Position numbers and translations under genes: made by a program
The notes under the pieces: model-generated
What the model was told of the DNA's origin: nothing
What the model saw: only the letters and a program-made list of their open reading frames with translations
The model's database searches: none
In this document: piece by piece, positions 1,580 to 52,070 of the stretch
Numbering within the stretch: the stretch's first letter is position 1
How the letters are laid out: the number at the start of each line of letters is the position of its first letter
Source: Pseudidiomarina aestuarii
GTDB lineage: Bacteria; Pseudomonadota; Gammaproteobacteria; Enterobacterales; Alteromonadaceae
Assembly: GCF_003987355.1 (NCBI RefSeq)
Contig: NZ_PIPR01000001.1
Span: 434,001-498,000, forward strand
Reading direction: 5' to 3'
Length of the DNA stretch: 64,000 nt

Positions 1580-3253
1580 ATGTCAGAAAATTTTGCACAA
1601 CTGTTTGAAGAGAGCCTGAAAACGGTCGAAACTCGCCCAGGTTCTATCGTAAAAGGTACTGTCGTAGCGATTAACCGCGATGTCGTGTTAGTTGACGCAG
1701 GCCTCAAGTCTGAAAGTGCTATCCCAGTTGAACAATTCCGCAATGCTGAAGGCCAAGTCGAAATCAAAGTCGGCGACGAAATTGATGTGGCGTTGGACGC
1801 AGTAGAAGACGGCTTCGGTGAGACTATCCTGTCTCGTGAAAAAGCGAAGCGTTATGAAGCGTGGTTGGTGCTTGAGAAAGCATACGAAGAGCAAGCAACT
1901 GTTACCGGTTTAATTAGCGGTAAAGTTAAAGGCGGCTTCACAGTTGATTTAGGTGGTGTACGCGCGTTCTTACCAGGTTCTTTGGTAGACGTACGTCCAG
2001 TTCGTGAAACGACCCACTTAGAAAATAAAGAACTCGAATTTAAAGTCATCAAGCTTGACCAGAAACGCAACAACGTTGTGGTTTCACGTCGTGCTGTGAT
2101 TGAGACTGAAAACAGCGCTGAGCGCGATGCACTGCTTGAGAACCTGCAAGAAGGTCAAGAAGTTCAAGGTATCGTTAAGAACTTGACTGATTACGGTGCG
2201 TTCGTTGACTTAGGCGGCGTTGACGGCCTGCTACACATCACTGATATGGCTTGGAAGCGCGTGAAGCACCCAAGCGAAGTCGTGAATGTTGGTGACGAGA
2301 TCACTGTCAAAGTATTGAAGTTCGACCGCGATCGTACCCGTGTATCTCTGGGTCTGAAGCAGTTGGGCGCTGATCCGTGGGCTGACATTGCTGCGCGTTA
2401 CCCAGAAGGGCATCGCCTGCAAGGTCGTGTCACTAACTTAACTGACTACGGTTGCTTCGTTGAAATCGAAGAAGGCGTGGAAGGTTTGGTACACGTATCT
2501 GAAATGGATTGGACCAACAAGAACGTACACCCATCTAAAGTTGTGAACTTAGATGACGTTGTTGAAGTGATGGTATTGGAAATTGACGAAGAGCGTCGCC
2601 GTATATCATTGGGTCTGAAACAATGTAAAGCTAACCCGTGGGAAGAGTTCGCGAAACACTTCAACAAGGGCGACAAAGTATCAGGCAAAATCAAGTCAAT
2701 CACTGACTTCGGTATCTTCATCGGCTTGGACGGTGGTATCGATGGTTTGGTTCACTTGTCAGACATCAGCTGGAATGCGACTGGCGAAGAAGCTGTTCGT
2801 GAATTCAAGAAAGGCGAAGAAGTCACTGCTGTGGTACTCCAAGTCGACGCAGAACGCGAGCGTATCTCGTTGGGCGTTAAGCAGTTGGAAGAAGATCCGT
2901 TCAACAATTATCTGGCAGTCAACAAAAAAGGTGCTATCGTTACTGGTAAGGTCATCGAAGTTGATGCCAAAGGCGCTAAAGTTGAGCTTGCAGATAGTGT
3001 TGAAGGCTACGTTCGCGTTGCTGACATTTCACGTGACCGTATCGAAGATGCGAGCACTGTATTGAAAGTTGGTGATGAAGTTGAAGCTCGTTTCATGGGC
3101 GTTGATCGTAAAAACCGTACGCTGAGCCTCTCTATTCGTGCAAAAGACGAAGTAGAAGAGAAAGAAGCGATGGAAACTGTCAACAAGCAGGAAGAAGACA
3201 ACTTCAGTAACGCAATGGCTGAAGCTTTCAAAGCTGCGAAAACTGACGATTAA
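1580..3253 (+). CDS. rpsA: 30S ribosomal protein S1
   Basis: S1 binds mRNA on the small ribosomal subunit and aids initiation, especially on structured or leader-poor messages. The 557-residue product has the normal gammaproteobacterial length and six consecutive S1 (OB-fold) repeats, at roughly residues 20-87, 105-171, 190-260, 277-347, 364-434 and 450-520. The middle repeats share the pattern [20 protein letters not shown]. The first two repeats are more divergent, as usual for the ribosome-docking end. The acidic, lysine-rich C-terminal tail is typical. Its start lacks a Shine-Dalgarno, as expected for an S1 gene that controls itself. It is followed by ihfB. Confidence 0.98.
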
Positions 3254-6297: not shown

Positions 6298-6884
6298 ATT
6301 GCTAACTGCCGTAATGCTCTGCGATGCAAGTAAAAAGCCGGTAGAGCAGCAATGAGGCCTGCTGTGTGAACAATAGCCAGCTCTTTAGCAGGTGTTATTT
6401 CTAAAAATGTCCATCCTAGCCATTCACTCGCCACTTTCAGAAGCAGCAGAACCAAAGGAATGATGATTAAATAATCGCGCATGGACCACTCGGCGCGGCG
6501 CCATTCAATCAGTAACCCAAAGAGTAACCAACCATGAATAAGCACCGACCAGCCACCAAATGATTCCGGTTGACCGAAACCGTAGATGAATAGACTACTC
6601 AGAGTAGTGATAATGAGCACACCATTGATGTAAGTGCGAACGGTAAAGTGTTGTGCGAACAACAGAGTGACGAAGACTAATGCAACGGCATTCCAACCCA
6701 CATGTTGCCAGCTGAGATGCAGTGCATGAGTGGTTATGAGGCGCCAGATTTCTGAAAAAGCTAATTCGCGTTCAAACCAATAGGGTTCAATGAATGAGGG
6801 CTGTTCAACAGCCATGCCGTATAGCCAGAGGCTTATGATGGCAAGTAAAAGACTCGTGATAATGACCTGATTTCTATCCGACAT
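6276..6884 (-). CDS. rrtA: rhombosortase (rhomboid-family intramembrane serine protease)
   Basis: A 202-residue polytopic membrane protein with about six hydrophobic helices and rhomboid hallmarks: HALHLSWQHVGWNAVAL (His/Asn-containing second helix), a catalytic serine in GGWSVLIHG, and a histidine in the last helix (VHTAGLIAALPAF). The short length and the GWSxxxHG variant fit rhombosortase, the protease that processes proteins with a GlyGly-CTERM tail, rather than GlpG. I do not see a GlyGly-CTERM protein in the window, so its substrates must lie elsewhere. The gene is single, convergent with the ComEA-like gene and divergent from ggt. Confidence 0.82.
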   Translation of the reverse strand: MSDRNQVIITSLLLAIISLWLYGMAVEQPSFIEPYWFERELAFSEIWRLITTHALHLSWQHVGWNAVALVFVTLLFAQHFTVRTYINGVLIITTLSSLFIYGFGQPESFGGWSVLIHGWLLFGLLIEWRRAEWSMRDYLIIIPLVLLLLKVASEWLGWTFLEITPAKELAIVHTAGLIAALPAFYLHRRALRQLAMKGAPEN

Positions 6885-6951
6885 TAGTCGTGAAACTCCA
6901 TACCGGCATTGCGCTCCTGAATCATGCTGCCTATCATACCGAATCGAACGT

Positions 6952-6971
6952 TTATTTCGAATCAGAAATAA
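6952..6971. promoter_or_regulatory. inverted repeat between rrtA and ggt
   Basis: TTATTTC and GAAATAA are exact inverted halves separated by six bases, about 45 bases upstream of the ggt start and 70 from rrtA. It could be an operator for the divergent pair, but an AT-rich repeat of this size can arise by chance. Confidence 0.2.
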
Positions 6972-7013
6972 TCATAGTCATAGATTTTTGGATCCCGGAA
7001 CGAGGAGTAGTGA

Positions 7014-8804
7014 GTGTCGTATACATTCTGGTCTAAGGTCGGTTGGATATGTGCAGCAGGCATTTTAAGTTGCGCGTTAGTCGCTTGTCAGCCCAAGCCA
7101 TCAACTAACGATTCTGTTGTTGATCAATCTGTAGCAGCAGACCCAGAAGCGGCAACCGGTCGTGCCGTCAAAACGGGGCAAACCGCACAAAACTATATGG
7201 CCGCCGCAGCAACGCCCTTAGCAGCAGAGGCGGGTGCTCGAGTACTTGCGGAAGGCGGCACGGCGATAGATGCAGCTATAGCGGTACAGGCTATGTTGAC
7301 ATTGACGGAACCGCAATCGAGCGGCATTGGTGGCGGCGCGTTTATTCTCTATTGGAGTGCCGAAGAGCGGAAATTGTATACCGTTGACGCACGAGAACGA
7401 GCTCCGCTAAACGCCGGTCCCGAATTGTTTTTTGACGCCCAAGGAAAGCCGCCTCAAAGTTATTGGGATGCGGTAATTGGTGGGCGGTCGGTTGGCACTC
7501 CTGGTGTTCTGAGAGGACTCGAGCTAGCGCATCAAAAGTGGGGCGGTTTGGCGTGGTCCGAACTCTTTATCGACGCCATTCAAACTGCTCGAGAAGGCTT
7601 CCCAGTATCACCGCGGTTAGCGAAATTATTAGCGATTGAGATGAATCCTGGAATTAAGGAACTCCGTCCAGCTGCGGACTATTTTTATCCGAATGGTGAG
7701 CCACTGGCAGTAGGAACTGTTCTGAAGAATCCCGAGCTAGCCGAGAGTTTTCAGCTCATCGCTGAGCAAGGCGCGGATGCGTTCTACACTGGACCTATTG
7801 CTGCCCAAATTGTGCAAGCCGTTCAAAATAGTACGCAGTCACCTGGGCTCATGACACTGGATGACCTCGCGCAATACGAAGCGAAGCTCCGTGAGCCTGT
7901 TTGTTCGCTGTATCGTGTTCATACCATCTGTGGCATGGGACCACCGAGCTCGGGCGCAACGACAGTCCTACAAATTTTAGGGATTCTAGAGAACTTCCCG
8001 GTCAGTGAGTGGAGTCCAACGGGTGAAACGTTTGTGCATCATTTTGCGCAGGCGTCGCGGCTCGCATTTGCTGATCGGAATCGGTACTTAGCAGACAGTG
8101 ACTTTGTTGATGTGCCAGTATCAGCGATGCTGGATAAAGCCTACCTGCAAGAACGCTCTGCGTTGATTAGCAACGAGGATATGGGACGGGCACAGCCAGG
8201 TGTATTTGCTCAATACAGCTATGCGGATGACCAGTCACCTGAGTTCCCGAATACCAGCCATATCTCAATTGTAGACGCCCAAGGCAATGCAGTATCCATG
8301 ACCACGAGCATTGAAATGGGCTTTGGATCGGCAGTTATGGCGGGTGGCTTTTTGCTGAATAACCAGTTAACCGATTTTTCTATCATTCCGATGGCCGATG
8401 GTAAACTTGTTGCCAATCGTGTTCAGGGTGGCAAACGTCCGCGCAGTTCCATGTCGCCCACCATGATTTTCGATCAAGAGGGTGATGATTTGGTGCATGT
8501 GGTTGGTTCTCCCGGCGGTTCGCGCATCATCAATTATGTTGCTCAAACGGTTGTCGGTTTGACGGATTTTGAGATGGACATGCAAAGTGCCATCGACCAA
8601 GCACATATCACCAACTTGAACGGTTCGACTCAGCTCGAGGCTGGAACGGTGATGGCAGAGTTAGAACAAGCATTACAAGCCCGAGGGCACAAGGTTCAAG
8701 TGCAAGATTTGAACAGTGGCTTGCATGGCATTACGGTGTTGCCTGATGGAACCCTATTCGGTGGCGCTGATCCTAGGCGTGAGGGGATAGCCGCTGGCCA
8801 ATAA
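7014..8804 (+). CDS. ggt: gamma-glutamyltranspeptidase, predicted lipoprotein
   Basis: Cleaves and transfers the gamma-glutamyl group of glutathione and related peptides outside the cytoplasm. The 596-residue precursor should self-cleave before Thr414 (motif NTSHISIVD), leaving a small subunit of about 183 residues, normal for the family; the substrate-binding segments SSGIGGGAF, PPSSGATT and the oxyanion PGGSRI are present. The N-terminus has a hydrophobic stretch ending in the lipobox LVAC (residues 22-25), so the enzyme is probably lipid-anchored rather than freely periplasmic. Start is GTG 7014, preceded by GAGGAG. The gene is monocistronic, ended by the terminator at 8803. Confidence 0.95.
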   Translation: MSYTFWSKVGWICAAGILSCALVACQPKPSTNDSVVDQSVAADPEAATGRAVKTGQTAQNYMAAAATPLAAEAGARVLAEGGTAIDAAIAVQAMLTLTEPQSSGIGGGAFILYWSAEERKLYTVDARERAPLNAGPELFFDAQGKPPQSYWDAVIGGRSVGTPGVLRGLELAHQKWGGLAWSELFIDAIQTAREGFPVSPRLAKLLAIEMNPGIKELRPAADYFYPNGEPLAVGTVLKNPELAESFQLIAEQGADAFYTGPIAAQIVQAVQNSTQSPGLMTLDDLAQYEAKLREPVCSLYRVHTICGMGPPSSGATTVLQILGILENFPVSEWSPTGETFVHHFAQASRLAFADRNRYLADSDFVDVPVSAMLDKAYLQERSALISNEDMGRAQPGVFAQYSYADDQSPEFPNTSHISIVDAQGNAVSMTTSIEMGFGSAVMAGGFLLNNQLTDFSIIPMADGKLVANRVQGGKRPRSSMSPTMIFDQEGDDLVHVVGSPGGSRIINYVAQTVVGLTDFEMDMQSAIDQAHITNLNGSTQLEAGTVMAELEQALQARGHKVQVQDLNSGLHGITVLPDGTLFGGADPRREGIAAGQ

Positions 8805-42147: not shown

Positions 42148-42741
42148 GTGCAACAAACCCATGACAAGCGGGCTAATCGTTGGTTGGCCCGCTTAGCGGA
42201 ATCAAATCATGTTTTGTGGCTGATCTTCGTATTGTCGTTATTGGAATCTATCATTGTTCCAATTCCGCTCGAGTTGATCCTGATCCCTTTGTTACTGAGT
42301 CAGCAACATCGTTTGTGGGCTATTAGTACGGCCACTTTAGCGGGCTGCCTAGTCGGCGCCACCATTGGTTATTTTGTCGGTTTTTGGTTTTTTGATGACG
42401 TTGGTCAATGGTTGCTACACGTATTGGGTTATGAAGACGCGTTTGCGAGCTTTTCAGAGCGCTTTCAGGAGCAAGGCTTTGGATTGCTGTTGTTGGTAGG
42501 AATCACTCCTATTCCTTTTCAGGTAGGTATGCTCAGTGCCGGGAGTACGGGCTACCCGTATTGGCTATTTATCATTGCAGCCATTATTGCGCGAGGTATT
42601 CGTTACTATGGTTTAGCGCTGCTCGTGTATTGGTTTGGAGACAAAATCTTGGAATTGTGGCAACGCTATAGTCAACGGGCTGGCTGGGTACTTGCCATAA
42701 TTGGGTTAAGCGCGCTGACATGGATTTGGATGGGGAGTTAA
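42148..42741 (+). CDS. YqaA-like DedA-superfamily membrane protein
   Basis: A 197-residue polytopic protein of the SNARE-associated/DedA superfamily, YqaA branch: LESIIVPIPLELILIPLLL, GATIGYFVGFWFFDDVG and LLVGITPIPFQVGMLSAGSTGY are diagnostic. Members are thought to move lipids or use the proton gradient in envelope homeostasis. Start GTG 42148, 15 bases after the M28 gene, probably in the same transcript. It ends four bases from the convergent ArsA gene. Confidence 0.82.
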   Translation: MQQTHDKRANRWLARLAESNHVLWLIFVLSLLESIIVPIPLELILIPLLLSQQHRLWAISTATLAGCLVGATIGYFVGFWFFDDVGQWLLHVLGYEDAFASFSERFQEQGFGLLLLVGITPIPFQVGMLSAGSTGYPYWLFIIAAIIARGIRYYGLALLVYWFGDKILELWQRYSQRAGWVLAIIGLSALTWIWMGS

Positions 42742-42745
42742 CTCT

Positions 42746-43735
42746 TCACCACGGCAGGTGTGGAATAACTCGATTCAGTCCGTCAAAACCGTTGATGTCA
42801 GTCGGCAACAAGGGAATGTAATAGCGACTCAACGTACGGAACTGAGCTTCAATTTCTTCTCTATAAATAGCTTCTTGTTGTCGTCTTTGCGCCAAAAAAT
42901 CCCCATCGGCGTGAGCGGGAAGGTTACGATTAATAAATAAGCCTTGAATCGGCAAGTGTTCTTTTTGTAACGCAGCAACTGCGCGTCCGGTCTCTAGAAT
43001 CGGTAACTTTTCTGGGGTTAACACAAAAAATAACGCGGTCTGTTGAGCATCGGTCAGAATGTGGCGAGTACGGTGAAATAGTCGCTGCCGCGACAGTAAC
43101 GTTGCAGTGATGTCAGCGGTGCGCTGGTCAACATTCGAAACACTGTGTTTGCGCGCATCGCTAAAGGGGTTACTGATATCTTTTCCCGCTTTTGGACTGA
43201 GATGATCCAAAACACCTTGCAGTTGCTGTGACTGAGAATCATGCCGTAATAGTCCTTGCGTCCATGCCGCCATAGCTTCCGGTAGCGTGAGCAGTCGCAG
43301 AGTATGCCCAGTGGGAGCTGTATCGAATATCATACGGTCATAGTGTTGCGGCGCTTCGTCCACTAAGGTTGCGATACGCTCGAGGAGAGCAGCTTCTTGA
43401 GCTCCTGGCGATTGTTGAGTTAAGCGCATTTGCCGTTCAATCTCTGCAAACATATCTGGACGCGCGAAACGCTTCATCGATTTCGTTACCCGCTCAACAT
43501 GGGCAATGACCTCATGGTCAGGATTAATTTCTAATGCATCTAAGCCCGGTATTAGCGTCTTAATTTCGTCACCGATTGGCTGCGCGAACGCATCGGCTAG
43601 GCTATGTGCAGGATCAGTAGAGATGATCAGTACACGCTCGCCACGTTGCTGACATCGTAAAGCTAGTGCCGATGACAGGGTCGTTTTACCAACGCCTCCC
43701 TTACCACCGATAAAAACTACTTTTTGTTTGAACAT
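42746..43735 (-). CDS. ArsA/Get3-family ATPase
   Basis: A 329-residue P-loop ATPase with the deviant Walker A GGKGGVGKTT at residues 10-19, the STDPAHSLADAF switch I segment, FDTAPTGHTLRLL and the later FFVLTPEKLPILETGRAVAAL. The family includes the arsenite pump ATPase and Get3, which targets tail-anchored proteins. No arsenic genes are nearby; it is instead the third gene of an operon with cstA and a small Cys-Cys-ended protein. The start is ATG 43735; a GTG at 43741 is also possible. Which client it serves is unknown. Confidence 0.88.
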   Translation of the reverse strand: MFKQKVVFIGGKGGVGKTTLSSALALRCQQRGERVLIISTDPAHSLADAFAQPIGDEIKTLIPGLDALEINPDHEVIAHVERVTKSMKRFARPDMFAEIERQMRLTQQSPGAQEAALLERIATLVDEAPQHYDRMIFDTAPTGHTLRLLTLPEAMAAWTQGLLRHDSQSQQLQGVLDHLSPKAGKDISNPFSDARKHSVSNVDQRTADITATLLSRQRLFHRTRHILTDAQQTALFFVLTPEKLPILETGRAVAALQKEHLPIQGLFINRNLPAHADGDFLAQRRQQEAIYREEIEAQFRTLSRYYIPLLPTDINGFDGLNRVIPHLPW

Positions 43736-43763
43736 GAGCACTCAATAATGACAACTTGGATAG

Positions 43764-44036
43764 CTAGCAACAACGAAAGTGATCAAGTGGCGAGTGTTCC
43801 ATGCCCATTCGTTGATGCCATTCATGAAAGCGCTCCAGCAATAACGGCTGGAGCTCTAATGTGTAGTAAGAAGCAGGATTCGGTACGCCCATGAGTTCAG
43901 AAAATACTAACATCATGAACAAATCGTCCTCATCCCGCTTTGCGCGCGCTATCGCAGCACGGTAAGGCGCATTGTACACCTCCGTCGCATAAGCATTGGC
44001 TTGTGCAAACCAACTGCGGATAGCTTTTATTTTCAT
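43764..44036 (-). CDS. small protein with C-terminal Cys-Cys, CstA-associated
   Basis: A 90-residue protein, MKIKAIRSWFAQANAY... ending DHFRCC at the stop codon. It resembles the small family that I remember being labelled cory-CC-star in public annotations; I cannot verify this here. It is not a clear YbdD/YjiX (DUF466) homologue, but that CstA-linked family also ends in Cys-Cys. Hydrophobicity in the middle (LFMMLVFSELMGVPNP) is not long enough for a sure membrane helix. Its ATG overlaps the cstA stop as ATGA, so it is translated with cstA. Confidence 0.75.
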   Translation of the reverse strand: MKIKAIRSWFAQANAYATEVYNAPYRAAIARAKRDEDDLFMMLVFSELMGVPNPASYYTLELQPLLLERFHEWHQRMGMEHSPLDHFRCC

Positions 44037-45703
44037 GCTTGATTTCGCTCCCGACGCAACTTAGTTAAGGTTGCGGCTGATTCTAACGCAATCCAAATCG
44101 CAGCGATCAGTACGACTAAATCGAGACCGAAAAGGAACCAATCTGATTTTTGGTAGAAGCCCATCAATTGAATAAGTAACGCGTAAATGGTCATCACCAA
44201 TAAGAACAACAGTGGAATCAGCGTAAAGTACATCGGCCGTCCGAGTTTGACCAAAATAGTCGTGATTACCAGTAGCGTTAAGCCAGCGAGTAATTGGTTA
44301 GTGGTACCAAATAATGGCCAAATAAGTAGGCCACCGGCACCATCAGCACCACCCGCACCAAAGGCCAGCAATAAGCATGAACCGACGGCGAGGAGGGTAG
44401 CTGGAGCTGCTTTCTCCATCCACTTGATGTTATAGATATGGCCCCACTCTTGGAAGATATAGCGTTGTAGACGTAGACCGGTGTCCATAGTGGTACCTGC
44501 GAATAACACGGCCATTACCGTGAGTAGCGTTTGTGCAATATCAACATTCAGGCCAATCCCGTTTTGGAGGATATTAGCGCCGCCTTGCACAAACGCAGCG
44601 ACACCACCTTGACCAAAGCTATGATAAACAGCCTGCCAGTCAGCCAGCGTGGCGAAACCAGCGGTTGCCGCAATAATGGTTGCTAAGGATAGAGAGCCCT
44701 CACCAATAGCACCGAAATAGCCCACAAAACGCAGGTCTGTTTCTTTATCTAACTGCTTAGATGTCGTGCCTGATGCAACCAGGCCGTGAAAGCCAGAAAT
44801 AGCGCCACAGGCAATCGTCACAAACAGCAGTGGCACCATGGAGGGCGTCCCCTCCGGAGTATTGTTATTGAACGCTGGAGCAACGAGTTCCGGGCCACTG
44901 ATGAGAACGGCGGAGTAGACCAAAATCAAGCCAATGAACAGTTGCAGTCCATTGATGTAGTCACGTGGTTGCAGTAGCACCCAGACCGGAAGCAACGAGG
45001 CAATCGCTGCGTAAAAGAACAGCACTAAGATCCACTGTGCATTGTCAGATACGCCAAGGAAACTCTGAGGGAGTTCAATAGGTACTGATGGTCCCGCCCA
45101 AATCAGCGCGTACAAGGCAATAACACCAATGATTGAAACGGTGCCCAAATTCATCCATTTGCGGAAAATGAACTGACCGATTATGAGCGCAACGAAAATC
45201 GCCCCCCACACGGGCACCACAGAACTTGGGAAGTTAATTAGTAGCCCAGAGATGGCAGTAGCGAAAACAGCATTCACCATCAATAGCACGAGGAAAATAA
45301 CGATCATAAACAGCGTTTGTGACCGTTTACCGACGATATCACCGGTCAATGCACCGATTGAGCGTGCTTTGTTACGGTTACTCGCCCAAATAGCGCCTGC
45401 ATCGTGAACACCAGCAAAGAAGATAGTACCGAATACCACCCATAAAAAGGCAGGTACCCACCCCCAAATAACGGCAATAGCGGGGCCGATGATAGGCGCA
45501 GCGCCAGCAACAGAGGTAAAGTGATGTCCCCAGAGGACGTACTTATTGGTTGGGACAAAATCTACACCGTCATTAAATTCATGCGCCGGTGTGCGGAAAT
45601 TTGGATCCAGTTTAAATATTTTTTCGGCTATGAATTTTGAGTAAAACACATAACCAAGAAACATGGCACCGAGTCCGAGTAACATCAGCAAAATAGCATT
45701 CAT
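44033..45703 (-). CDS. cstA: CstA-family carbon starvation transporter (short form)
   Basis: A 556-residue polytopic protein of the CstA family, which imports peptides or pyruvate under carbon limitation. Diagnostic segments are KYVLWGHHFTSVAGAAPIIGPAIAVIWGW, FAGVHDAGAIWASNRNKARSIG and FVTIACGAISGFHGLVASGTTSKQL. It is shorter than E. coli CstA or BtsT (about 700) and fits the short branch seen in Alteromonadales and Gram-positives. First gene of the operon with the Cys-Cys protein and the ArsA-like ATPase. Confidence 0.93.
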   Translation of the reverse strand: MNAILLMLLGLGAMFLGYVFYSKFIAEKIFKLDPNFRTPAHEFNDGVDFVPTNKYVLWGHHFTSVAGAAPIIGPAIAVIWGWVPAFLWVVFGTIFFAGVHDAGAIWASNRNKARSIGALTGDIVGKRSQTLFMIVIFLVLLMVNAVFATAISGLLINFPSSVVPVWGAIFVALIIGQFIFRKWMNLGTVSIIGVIALYALIWAGPSVPIELPQSFLGVSDNAQWILVLFFYAAIASLLPVWVLLQPRDYINGLQLFIGLILVYSAVLISGPELVAPAFNNNTPEGTPSMVPLLFVTIACGAISGFHGLVASGTTSKQLDKETDLRFVGYFGAIGEGSLSLATIIAATAGFATLADWQAVYHSFGQGGVAAFVQGGANILQNGIGLNVDIAQTLLTVMAVLFAGTTMDTGLRLQRYIFQEWGHIYNIKWMEKAAPATLLAVGSCLLLAFGAGGADGAGGLLIWPLFGTTNQLLAGLTLLVITTILVKLGRPMYFTLIPLLFLLVMTIYALLIQLMGFYQKSDWFLFGLDLVVLIAAIWIALESAATLTKLRRERNQA

Positions 45704-45878
45704 GGATGGTATCCTTTTGTGCTGCTACAAGCGTTATAGAAGAAAAGTTTTAGCCTCCGTATACTACTGGAGAACAGCGTGAAGCCCCATTCGACTAAAG
45801 TCTAGATCATCAATAGGTGTTGTGCGCCGTTTTCTTTATACTAAGCCTCTGGTCACGTTTCACTTTACTGGAATCTCT

Positions 45879-47720
45879 ATGTTCAAAAGGTTGTACCGCT
45901 GGTTCGAGCAACGTCTTGATCCGTTCCCACCCGTGTCACTCGAACAACCGCCTCGTGGTTTGGTGTCGTTTTGTTTGCATTACACCCGCGGAGCCTGGCC
46001 ATACATTATCTGTGCAGGCCTGCTGATGGTGTTGATTGCCATCACAGAGGTTTGGTTATTCAGCTTTATCGGAAATATTGTTGATTGGTTATCGGTGCAA
46101 TCGCGCGAGACGTTTGTTGCGGACCAAAAGTGGGCTTTAATCGGCATGGCGGCACTAATCCTTATTGCATTGCCATTATTCGTCATTCTGCATTCATTAG
46201 TGACATCACAAACGTTGCTGGGAAACTACCCGATGCGTATTCGTTGGTTGGTCCATAACTATCTTCTCAACCAATCGATCAGCTTTTACCAAGATGAATT
46301 TGCTGGTCGTATCGCTACCAAGCTCATGCAAACCGCATTGGCGGTTCGTGAAGTCGTAATTAAATTGGTCGATGTACTGAATTATGTCAGCGTGTACTTT
46401 ATCGGTACCGTCTTGATTGTTGCTTCGGCCGATTGGCGTCTGGCAGTGCCGCTATTGGTGTGGTTGGCATTCTATATCTCATTACTAAGATATTTTGTTC
46501 CAAGGTTGGGGAAGGTGGCGGAAGCGCAAGCTGATGCTCGTTCATTGATGACCGGTCGAATTGTCGATAGCTATACCAATATTCAAACCGTTAAGCTTTT
46601 CTCACATGCGCAACGCGAGAGCTCATATGCACAAGAGGGGATGAGTCATTTTTTAACGACCGTGCATAAACAAATGCGGCTAGTTACAAAGTTATATGTT
46701 CTGCTTTACCTATTAAATTCTTTCTTATTATTTTCAGTAGGATACTTAGCGATACAACTGTGGTTAGAAAACGCGATCAGTGTGGGTGCTATCGCGGTCG
46801 CTTTGAGCTTAGTCTTGCGTCTGTGGGGCATGAGCCAATGGATTATGTGGGAAGTTTCGGCGTTATTCGAAAACATTGGAACGGTGCAAGATGGGATGCA
46901 AACCGTATCGGTGCCGCGGCTGATTGAAGATAAACCGAATGCGAAAGATCTGAGTGTGACCGCTGGAGCGGTTCATTTTGATAACGTGAACTTCTTTTAC
47001 TCAGCCGATAAGCCAGTTTTGAAGAACTTCAATTTAACCATCAAAGCCGGTGAAAAAATCGGTTTGGTGGGACGTTCTGGCGCCGGCAAGTCGACGCTCG
47101 TGAATATATTGCTGAGGTTCTATGATTTACAAAGTGGTAAAATTCTTATCGACGGCCAAGATATCGCAATGATTTCGCAGGAAAGTCTGCGCCGTAATAT
47201 TGGTATGGTGACTCAAGATACATCACTCTTGCATCGCTCGGTGCGAGGTAACATTGCTTATGGCAGACCTGACGCAACCGATGCGATGATTGAAGAGGCC
47301 GCACAGCGTGCTGAAGCAGACATTTTTATACCCGAACTCACTGATGCAAAAGGACGGCAGGGCTATGACGCGCATGTCGGTGAGCGCGGTGTGAAACTTT
47401 CTGGTGGGCAACGACAGCGTATTGCCATTGCCCGCGTGATGTTGAAAGATGCACCAATTTTGATTTTGGATGAAGCTACTTCCGCCTTGGACTCTGAAGT
47501 TGAAGCGGCGATTCAAGAGAACTTGTATCGACTGATGGAAGGGAAAACGGTTATAGCCATCGCCCATCGCTTGTCGACGATTGCAGCCATGGATCGACTC
47601 ATTGTGCTAGATGAAGGACAGATAGTTGAACAGGGTACACACGCAGAATTATTGGAGCAAAACGGCATCTATGCTCAGCTTTGGCAACATCAGTCGGGTG
47701 GATTTTTGACCGACGACTAA
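45879..47720 (+). CDS. ABC exporter (fused permease-ATPase)
   Basis: A 613-residue half transporter that should work as a homodimer in the inner membrane. Six helices (about residues 40-330) precede an ATPase with Walker A GRSGAGKST, Q-loop in GMVTQDTSLLH, signature KLSGGQRQRIAIARV, Walker B LILDEATSALDSE and H-loop IAHRLST. Lipid A or drug exporters have this layout; the substrate is not predictable. The N-terminus MFKRLYRWFEQRLDPFPP supports ATG 45879 over the upstream GTG at 45822. Single gene, divergent from cstA. Confidence 0.92.
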   Translation: MFKRLYRWFEQRLDPFPPVSLEQPPRGLVSFCLHYTRGAWPYIICAGLLMVLIAITEVWLFSFIGNIVDWLSVQSRETFVADQKWALIGMAALILIALPLFVILHSLVTSQTLLGNYPMRIRWLVHNYLLNQSISFYQDEFAGRIATKLMQTALAVREVVIKLVDVLNYVSVYFIGTVLIVASADWRLAVPLLVWLAFYISLLRYFVPRLGKVAEAQADARSLMTGRIVDSYTNIQTVKLFSHAQRESSYAQEGMSHFLTTVHKQMRLVTKLYVLLYLLNSFLLFSVGYLAIQLWLENAISVGAIAVALSLVLRLWGMSQWIMWEVSALFENIGTVQDGMQTVSVPRLIEDKPNAKDLSVTAGAVHFDNVNFFYSADKPVLKNFNLTIKAGEKIGLVGRSGAGKSTLVNILLRFYDLQSGKILIDGQDIAMISQESLRRNIGMVTQDTSLLHRSVRGNIAYGRPDATDAMIEEAAQRAEADIFIPELTDAKGRQGYDAHVGERGVKLSGGQRQRIAIARVMLKDAPILILDEATSALDSEVEAAIQENLYRLMEGKTVIAIAHRLSTIAAMDRLIVLDEGQIVEQGTHAELLEQNGIYAQLWQHQSGGFLTDD

Positions 47721-49892: not shown

Positions 49893-52070
49893 ATGCGCGC
49901 GAACCTGCCAGACTTCTACTATTTGACTCATTTCCATGAGTTTTTATCACATTTAAAGACGAAATCTGCGGACCTACTGAGGGAAACCGACCGGACGTTC
50001 TTGAATGCTTTTCAAGCATTAGCCAAAGAACAGCAGGCTCTAGTGGTAAGACTCGTGAATCGGAGCCAACCTTGGGTTCGTCGCGCATCGCTTAATTATT
50101 CTGAACTGACAAACTGGAAAGGTGCTTTATCAGTACTTGAGCAACAGCAGTGGGTGGTGACAGCCTCAGCAACACTCACAAGCAGTAAGTTGCAGAGCTT
50201 TTTGCACACCCTGACCAAAGCTGAACTGCAACGGATCTATGTTGAAGTCTCATCATCAAATTCACGCAATCTTCCCTTCAGTGCAGCAAAAGCGCATTGG
50301 ATAGCCGCTTGTCAGGCGCTCACTCTGAACCAATTACAGAGTGCAGCAATCACATCAGAATTTGTCGCTTTAGCCGACCCAGTAGCCGCTCGGATACGCT
50401 ATCTTCTCTTCATATATTTTGGTCGCACTGAGACCGATTTTAAGCAATTTTCATTGCGTGATTTAGGGATCCGTCCGACCCATGAAGAAGCGCATGTGAA
50501 TTCCGAGAGCTTACTGCGTTTTGAAACCATCGAAGCTGCCGAATCAGCGCTCTATTACAGTGAATTGCGCCAGCAGCTGGCTGACTCCACTTTGGCACTT
50601 GCTGCTTTTGATGACATTGATACCTGGCCAACACCAATCGGGCCGCGTGCGGAGCGTCTGGCACTCAGTTGTCGATTTCGGTGGGGCGAGGCTATCAAAG
50701 ATAGTGATCCGGCGCTTGCGTGTGACGTGTGGGAAGCGACTGCACATCCCAAAGCTCAGGAACAAGCAGTTCGGCTATTGTATCAATGCGGAGAACAAGA
50801 GCGCGCTATTGCGCTGGCTGAGGCGATTATTCGTGATCCGCTTGATGACAGCCTGGCATTGTTCGCGGAAGATTTCGTCGCCCGCAAAGTGGGTGGTAAA
50901 CGCACCAGTATTTTGACAGATTTGCTGCGCGACGCCTTACCAGAAATACCCGTAGACGAAGCTTATCGAGGGAATGTGGAACAGGGGGTCGTAGCATGGC
51001 ACGAGCGGCATGGCGCACACTGCTTTCACGGCGAAAATAATGTTTGGCGAGCTCTGTTCGCTTTATATTTCTGGTCGGAGTTGATGGAGTCGCCACAAGG
51101 CGGATTTGTGAGCGAATTCGACCGTACCCCGCGCTTACTCCAAACGGGGGAATTTTATGCCGTCATGCAAACCGAAATTGAGCAACAATTACAGTACTTT
51201 TCGCAATCCCAACAGGCTTTTCGGCACATCCAAAAACAATTTACTGTGCACTACGGGCGGGTGACCAATTTATTTCATTGGCACTCTGATTTACTGCGAC
51301 AGTTGACAGTATTGATGCAAGCACCGGCGCCCGCGCTAGAAAATCACCTCAGAGCCATGTGCAAAGACTATTTTGCTTTTACCGATGGCTACCCAGATTT
51401 GCTCGGTAAAAGAGCTAACGGCTTCTTTCTCGAGGAGGTTAAAGCACCAGGCGATCAATTGCGACGCAATCAAGCACGAATGATTCAGCATCTGCGTGCA
51501 ATTGGCTTCACCGTGGGCATTCGGCCCATTCTTTGGCAAATCGATAGCGAGCAACCTTATGTTGTGATTGACGTCGAAACTACCGGTGGCGGACGTGATT
51601 ATCATCGAATCACTGAGGTGGCAGTGGTGCGGATAGAGCAGGGCGAAATTGTTGCACAGTGGAGTCAACTGATTAATCCAGAGCGACGCATCCCCCATGC
51701 CATCACTCAACTCACCGGTATTTCAAATGAGATGGTTGCCGATGCACCCTTGTTCGCGGAACAAGTTGACACCTTTTTAGCATTATGTGAGGGAGCGATT
51801 TTTGTCGCGCATAATGTGAATTTTGATTATGGTTTTATTCGACGTGAGTTTGAGCGCTTGGGAAGAACCTTTCGTATGCCAAAGCTTTGCACGGTCCAAC
51901 TGGCACGCAAACATCTAGCGAAGCTAAGTTCCTATCGACTGAGCGCTCTGTGTGAGGCCTATGACATTGATTTGACCAATCATCACCGAGCGCTAGCGGA
52001 TGCGCGTGCAACAGCTGAATTGTTTCTGCTTATTCAATCGCATCGACTGGGATCTCAAACTGCTCCGTAA
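49893..52070 (+). CDS. FAN1-like VRR-NUC nuclease fused to a DEDDh exonuclease
   Basis: A 725-residue protein in two blocks. Residues 1-540 follow the bacterial FAN1 layout: YYLTHFHEFL, ALVVRLVNRSQPWVRRASLNYSEL near the N-terminus, a helical repeat-like middle, and a C-terminal VRR-NUC domain with Asp502 in GYPDLLG and Glu515-Val-Lys517 in LEEVKAPGDQL. Residues 555-720 form a DnaQ-like 3'-5' exonuclease with DxE (Asp560, Glu562), the HNVNFDYGFI motif and His698/Asp703. FAN1 cleaves flap and crosslink-containing DNA; the added exonuclease could trim products. Start ATG 49893 has only a weak ribosome site. The 3' end overlaps the convergent nuclease by 41 bases. Confidence 0.9.
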   Translation: MRANLPDFYYLTHFHEFLSHLKTKSADLLRETDRTFLNAFQALAKEQQALVVRLVNRSQPWVRRASLNYSELTNWKGALSVLEQQQWVVTASATLTSSKLQSFLHTLTKAELQRIYVEVSSSNSRNLPFSAAKAHWIAACQALTLNQLQSAAITSEFVALADPVAARIRYLLFIYFGRTETDFKQFSLRDLGIRPTHEEAHVNSESLLRFETIEAAESALYYSELRQQLADSTLALAAFDDIDTWPTPIGPRAERLALSCRFRWGEAIKDSDPALACDVWEATAHPKAQEQAVRLLYQCGEQERAIALAEAIIRDPLDDSLALFAEDFVARKVGGKRTSILTDLLRDALPEIPVDEAYRGNVEQGVVAWHERHGAHCFHGENNVWRALFALYFWSELMESPQGGFVSEFDRTPRLLQTGEFYAVMQTEIEQQLQYFSQSQQAFRHIQKQFTVHYGRVTNLFHWHSDLLRQLTVLMQAPAPALENHLRAMCKDYFAFTDGYPDLLGKRANGFFLEEVKAPGDQLRRNQARMIQHLRAIGFTVGIRPILWQIDSEQPYVVIDVETTGGGRDYHRITEVAVVRIEQGEIVAQWSQLINPERRIPHAITQLTGISNEMVADAPLFAEQVDTFLALCEGAIFVAHNVNFDYGFIRREFERLGRTFRMPKLCTVQLARKHLAKLSSYRLSALCEAYDIDLTNHHRALADARATAELFLLIQSHRLGSQTAP

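Follow-up and report, generated by a model that had tools for sequence, protein, structure and literature searches.

An operon of a CstA-family transporter, a Cys-Cys-ended small protein and an ArsA-type ATPase in Pseudidiomarina aestuarii, and a possible mechanism for its action

Operons in which a gene for a CstA-family transporter is followed by genes for a small protein, CstX, and an ArsA homologue were described by Castillo and Saier in 2010 (PMC2963123). According to the accessible part of that paper, 26 CstA–ArsA associations were recorded, 24 of them with CstX; the three proteins largely co-evolve, ars genes are absent, the ArsA homologues are single-domain proteins without the ArsA cysteines, and CstX was proposed to couple ATP hydrolysis by ArsA to CstA. 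Here, a 64,000-nucleotide stretch of the Pseudidiomarina aestuarii genome (contig NZ_PIPR01000001.1, positions 434,001 to 498,000; the window) was analyzed, in which cstA, a small gene and an ArsA-type ATPase gene follow one another in this order, all co-directional, on the minus strand. The locus agrees with the published operons, as the accessible part of the paper presents them, in gene content, in the ~330-amino-acid single-domain ArsA, in the ~90-amino-acid small protein and in the absence of ars genes. The small protein belongs to the family cory-CC-star and is called Cory below. CstX was equated with Cory from size and position, not from sequence comparison, and whereas one transmembrane segment is stated for CstX in the accessible text (for an archaeal cluster), none is predicted by hydropathy in Cory. 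The locus is confirmed as an operon of a published type whose small protein has a named family, and it is not new, since PMC2963123 described it and NF041419 names the small protein. A preliminary description of this DNA, made from its letters, had presented it as a module with no known mechanism; that statement falls, because the coupling through CstX had been put forward already in the part of PMC2963123 cited above. The assembly or regulation role at which it hinted would be one candidate among several. The question that remains after the 2010 description is how the trio works mechanistically. With a probability of about 45%, we favor a mechanism in which Cory would dock an ArsA-type homodimer on CstA, and uptake would thereby be activated or energized by ATP turnover.

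The E. coli CstA–YbdD system (DUF466, PF04328; KCU-star, NF033934) resembles the locus in that a small Cys-Cys-ended protein follows a CstA-family gene. E. coli needs YbdD to take up pyruvate through CstA, as stated in the accessible part of PMC5847655, and a pyruvate-specific phenotype is given for a Desulfovibrio cstA in that of PMC10102598. The KCU-star family is treated in the available portions of PMC9312934 and PMC13188914, and YbdD is unmentioned in the available text of PMC7730263 and PMC12632267. In contrast to the operon described here, the YbdD type has no ArsA at L167, the sole YbdD locus checked for ArsA, its CstA is longer, and the two small proteins have no detectable homology. 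The ArsA–ArsD–ArsB pump likewise combines an ArsA-type ATPase, a small partner, often with a Cys-Cys end, and a carrier; however, its ArsA has two domains and arsenic-binding cysteines, and no homology of ArsD to Cory is detectable. The arsenite-pump carrier is not known to be related to CstA. Get3/TRC40, on the other hand, is a single-domain protein and gives the best fold match to the model of the ATPase, but its conserved cysteines are absent here, and there is no evident tail-anchored client at this locus.

Six Cory sequences were used to scan a genome collection. At least 591 stretches matched, at least 571 of which encode a relative, and the nearest 80 were kept; because these come mainly from Idiomarinaceae and relatives of Halomonas, the sample is uneven. 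Among the nearest 80 of the at least 571 loci, Cys-Cys stands directly before the stop codon of Cory in all 80, cstA lies directly upstream on the same strand in the 79 that could be tested (L081 is cut), and arsA follows downstream on that strand, at most about 290 bases away, in all 80, with a broken frame in L017. In a phylum draw of 299 genomes, both cstA and arsA adjoin Cory in each of the six genomes that have it, the window included. A class draw of 369 genomes yielded nine Cory matches, of which eight were over the cut-off and six of those new; cstA lies upstream in all six new genomes and arsA downstream in five, G511 being the exception, and in two of the six a fourth ORF stands between cstA and cory. 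In G648, the ninth match, Cory is present as a degenerate fragment on a 5.5-kilobase contig that bears neither neighbor, and the genome has no over-cut-off ArsA. Furthermore, three of six plasmid records with Cory were opened (Paracoccus, Pseudochrobactrum and Cytobacillus spongiae, the last of the Bacillota), and all three carry the trio, which is thereby found in Alphaproteobacteria and Bacillota too. Pairwise identities among the three proteins correlate at 0.89–0.90 over 83 loci, a value that common ancestry alone could produce. The cstA–cory–arsA arrangement is a genuine conserved operon and not a product of chance. The conserved three-gene module around CstA that the preliminary description had suggested is thus borne out, and the co-occurrence count that it had proposed finds the three genes as regular, not rare, neighbors elsewhere. 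As a separate observation, the arsA frame of L017 (Idiomarina sp. ATCH4, 6322–7273) is broken near codon 47, with cstA and cory aligning throughout; the break could be a sequencing error.

CstA, which we take to be a secondary transporter of the LeuT-type fold, has a single match in the organism's own genome by protein search, and no relative of it was found in the PDB (phmmer, E 0.001). CstA matches occurred in 156 of the 299 genomes of the phylum draw, some of them weak and perhaps paralogues, with YbdD/DUF466 in 50 genomes, Cory in six and both in none. For 50 of the 53 YbdD places, a listed CstA match precedes YbdD on the same strand at a distance within 1200 bases, and one of the other three begins a contig. 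CstA measures 657–696 amino acids in the group labeled YbdD-type, where for at least one member, L117, the YbdD of the genome adjoins another CstA, versus 554–579 amino acids in 22 Cory-type proteins. Three genomes of the same family as the window (L160, L161 and L162) encode a CstA of ~60% identity without Cory and without an over-cut-off ArsA. In a midpoint-rooted tree of 68 CstA sequences, these partner-less proteins fall within the Cory-type group, and the Cytobacillus Cory-type CstA falls outside them. This pattern fits an apparent joint loss of Cory and ArsA in the family, with separate gain by transfer as the alternative.

The small protein matches NCBIfam NF041419.1 (CC_star_Cory) near full length, with 139.5 bits against a cut-off of 80 over positions 2–80 of the 80-position profile. 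Its terminal Cys-Cys is what the family name, as distinct from the model text (not seen), implies, and no difference from the family was found. No Pfam family matched at E up to 1, including PF04328 and PF06953, and a PDB sequence search returned two chance-level matches only (E 0.82 and 1). The term "cory-CC-star" was not found in any paper in the literature searched. Nineteen positions are invariant in all 89 aligned Cory sequences, among them H71, W73, H74, R76, G78, P83, C89 and C90. The highest 19-residue Kyte–Doolittle mean is 1.02, and none of the 89 homologues reaches 1.6; on this hydropathy, a tail-anchored or single-span protein was rejected. The predicted structure is weak, with a mean predicted local distance difference test score (pLDDT) of 71.4 and a predicted template modeling score (pTM) of 0.39. 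As the preliminary description had noted, the Cys-Cys end resembles that of YbdD and the remainder differs: in 30 of 31 loci, the YbdD homologue closes with Cys-Cys (Cys-Pro-Cys in one), but an hhalign comparison aligned 11 columns only (GVPNPxxYY versus GvPDYdnY; probability 1.3%, E 0.04) and two columns in global mode, and the alignment scores of profiles without the Cys-Cys were matched by 99, 126 and 122 of 150 shuffles under three gap settings. Homology between Cory and YbdD was accordingly rejected. Homology between Cory and ArsD was rejected as well (hhalign probability 0.2%), and the common Cys-Cys end was taken as analogy.

The ATPase reaches 244.8 bits for NCBIfam TIGR00345 (GET3_arsA_TRC40; cut-off 135) and 231.1 bits for Pfam ArsA_ATPase (PF02374). 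It is the only long one of three ArsA_ATPase matches in its own genome, the others being short (29.5 and 23 bits), and it falls outside the two-domain arsenite-pump ArsA type, with a single domain, 329 amino acids and 145.1 bits against a TIGR04291 cut-off of 650. A GKGG-type P-loop and a DTAP motif are present in the window protein and in one open reading frame (ORF) at 87 of 88 loci, the broken L017 being the exception; since these two motifs were the selection rule for ATPase ORFs, their per-column conservation of at least 98% arises partly by construction. The STDPAH motif, which lay outside this rule, is conserved to at least 98% in the 88 aligned ATPases (the window and 87 others). Judged from these motifs, the ATPase is very probably active. 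No alignment column reaches 30% cysteine in the 88 sequences; 47 of them have no cysteine, and the window protein has one. ArsA binds arsenite through cysteines, and Get3 binds zinc through a CxxC motif. Both sites are absent from this ATPase, because no cysteine column is conserved.

The AlphaFold2 model of the ATPase (mean pLDDT 78.5, pTM 0.77) has archaeal TRC40/Get3 proteins as its closest PDB folds, namely 3zq6 (E 1.8e-26, the best) and 3ug6; by PDB sequence ranking, algal ArsA1 and bacterial ArsA come first, and 3zq6 and 3ug6 follow among the best. This likeness favors a role in biogenesis, in which a Get3-like ATPase would escort or insert CstA (or Cory) with Cory as a co-chaperone, and ATP would be spent on assembly instead of transport. 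The single domain also agrees with Get3, as do residues 157–202, which are modeled with pLDDT below 50 and roughly coincide with what we presume to be the region where Get3 holds its clients. However, no hydrophobic stretch of Cory has the length that a tail anchor requires, the zinc-binding CxxC of Get3 is missing, and the three same-family genomes keep a ~60%-identical CstA without the ATPase. Such a role is a serious candidate but rather unlikely.

Based on the conserved gene order, the intact nucleotide site of the ATPase and the conserved Cys-Cys-ended small protein without a membrane helix predicted by hydropathy, a possible course for the ATP-assisted mechanism was proposed. Cory may act as a cytosolic adaptor on the cytoplasmic face of CstA, where it could dock the ArsA-type ATPase as a homodimer. 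The binding and hydrolysis of ATP would then convert CstA to an activated or energized state for uptake; by analogy with the E. coli protein, the substrate may be pyruvate or peptides. For the Cys-Cys tail, metal binding or redox switching is probable, either of which could control docking. ArsB is proton-driven alone and ATP-assisted together with ArsA; a comparable shift of the carrier by its ATPase may, by analogy, apply to CstA.

Several points weigh against this mechanism. G511 (locus L183) encodes cstA and Cory but no over-cut-off ArsA genome-wide; its genome is rated 100% complete, a 68-amino-acid frame in it scores 24.3 bits for ArsA, and G615, of the same genus, has an over-cut-off ArsA. 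CstA in general needs no such partners, because the three same-family genomes have a close CstA alone. CstA relatives are named proton symporters, also in the accessible part of PMC7730263, so that an ATP drive is not chemically required. The Cory model cannot back the docking claim because of its pTM of 0.39. In the literature read, the trio is treated in PMC2963123 only, and neither an experiment on it nor an interaction, transport or ATPase measurement was found. Cory and ArsA are thus optional for the CstA family and mostly travel together, G511 showing that they can be separated. The CstA relatives that lack Cory and ArsA in other genomes would also suit mere co-transcription, in which the ATPase serves another client and does not act directly on CstA; this is very improbable indeed, as the linkage is conserved in all examined Cory genomes save G511 and the G648 fragment, and the sole long ArsA of the genome lies in the operon.

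Under metal or redox control, a soft metal would bind to the Cys-Cys tail of Cory, perhaps with the participation of H71 and H74, or the tail would form a disulfide; the ATPase would load or read the tail as in the ArsD–ArsA pair, and the activity of CstA would be gated accordingly. The invariance of the Cys-Cys in 89 of 89 Cory sequences is consistent with such control. ArsD, the metallochaperone of ArsA, was sampled at 11 places, one of which was below the cut-off and removed; in the ten left (L186–L194 and L196, two of them from one genome), the C-terminal ends are Cys-Cys in seven, Ser-Cys in two and Gln-Gly in one. For DUF466, the last cysteine is a selenocysteine in some Campylobacterales, which the authors read as a sign of redox function in the accessible part of PMC4607533. 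No selenocysteine-ended Cory was seen among the loci at hand, which end in Cys-Cys in 80 of 80 and do not cover Campylobacterota. In addition, the chaperone activity of ArsD needs C12, C13 and C18 and not the C-terminal pairs, according to the accessible part of PMC4562236, and the ATPase offers no conserved cysteine as a metal acceptor.

An additional ORF between cstA and cory in two distant lineages bears on the same possibility. It is a 95-amino-acid gene in Cytobacillus (L149, 3690–3977, plus strand) and an ORF of ~130–150 amino acids in G511 (L183, ~2325–2720, minus strand) and G615 (L184, 3273–3722, minus strand). The ORFs of L183 and L184 share an HSGSGCCGRLG stretch (Gly-Cys-Cys-Gly) and VVDPRN, of which DPRN is common to all three. 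The C-terminal end of the G615 ORF shows a weak ArsD likeness (hhalign E 0.0027, probability 11%) and a Thioredoxin_3 match below the cut-off (E 0.29). These features favor metal or redox control, whereas the candidate counterpart in Cytobacillus has no Cys-Cys. The fourth ORFs gave no over-cut-off Pfam or NCBIfam match, no PDB match (E up to 10) and no plasmid match, and a BLASTP comparison of L184 with L149 found no match. An hhalign comparison of L183 and L184 with L149 aligned a weakly similar stretch with DPRN at its end (E 0.00046, probability 33%), and the local-alignment scores against L149 were reached by none of 1000 shuffles each, a test picked after DPRN had been noticed. The fourth ORF is a post hoc lead and not a result, too weak to shift the odds of the explanations, and control by metal or redox state is unlikely. 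A broader variant would combine a LeuT-type carrier made ATP-assisted with a Cys-Cys tail as a metal or redox latch that arose independently in Cory, YbdD/DUF466 and ArsD, loaded or reset in some lineages by an ArsD- or thioredoxin-like fourth protein. This variant is distinctly improbable; if true, carriers and ArsA-type ATPases would share the "CC-stop" as a switch that evolved convergently.

If the ATP-assisted coupling of CstA through Cory is real, nature would offer, in addition to ArsA/ArsB, another example of a secondary carrier that receives energy or control from an ATPase, in this instance a carrier for pyruvate or peptide uptake in starvation. A single bacterial family in which close CstA proteins have and lack both partners provides a clean comparison for the function of these partners.

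The features of the operon and its flanks are listed in Table 1. The three genes form a stand-alone unit, since a convergent VTT-domain gene lies at one end and a divergent ABC transporter gene at the other. Open reading frames and translations confirm the junctions given in the preliminary description: the ATG of the small gene overlaps the TGA of cstA as ATGA, and 28 bases separate the small-gene stop from the ATG of the ATPase gene (22 bases with an in-frame GTG at 43741). It had also stated that no arsenic genes surround the operon, and indeed neither ArsB nor Acr3 was matched in the organism's own 2.64-megabase genome (completeness 99.5%); ArsD (PF06953) and YbdD/DUF466 (PF04328) gave no match there either.

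Table 1. Features of the operon and its flanking genes (positions in the window)
Feature	Positions	Strand	Description	Support or orientation
cstA	44033–45703	-	556 amino acids, short-type CstA-family transporter	PF02554, 458.5 bits
Small gene (CstX / cory-CC-star)	43764–44036	-	90 amino acids, ...HFRCC-stop	NF041419.1
Terminal Cys-Cys and stop codons of the small gene	43764–43772	-		Cys-Cys in 89/89 aligned homologues
Single-domain ArsA/Get3/TRC40-type ATPase gene	42746–43735	-	329 amino acids from ATG	TIGR00345, PF02374
VTT-domain (DedA-type) gene	42148–42741	+		Convergent to operon end
ABC transporter gene	45822–47720	+		Divergent from operon start

A promoter consensus scan of 42600–45900 gave one site, on the plus strand within cstA, where 4.1 were expected. 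Elsewhere in the window, an ORF at 49893–52070 on the plus strand combines FAN1_HTH and VRR_NUC with a C-terminal RNase_T exonuclease domain.

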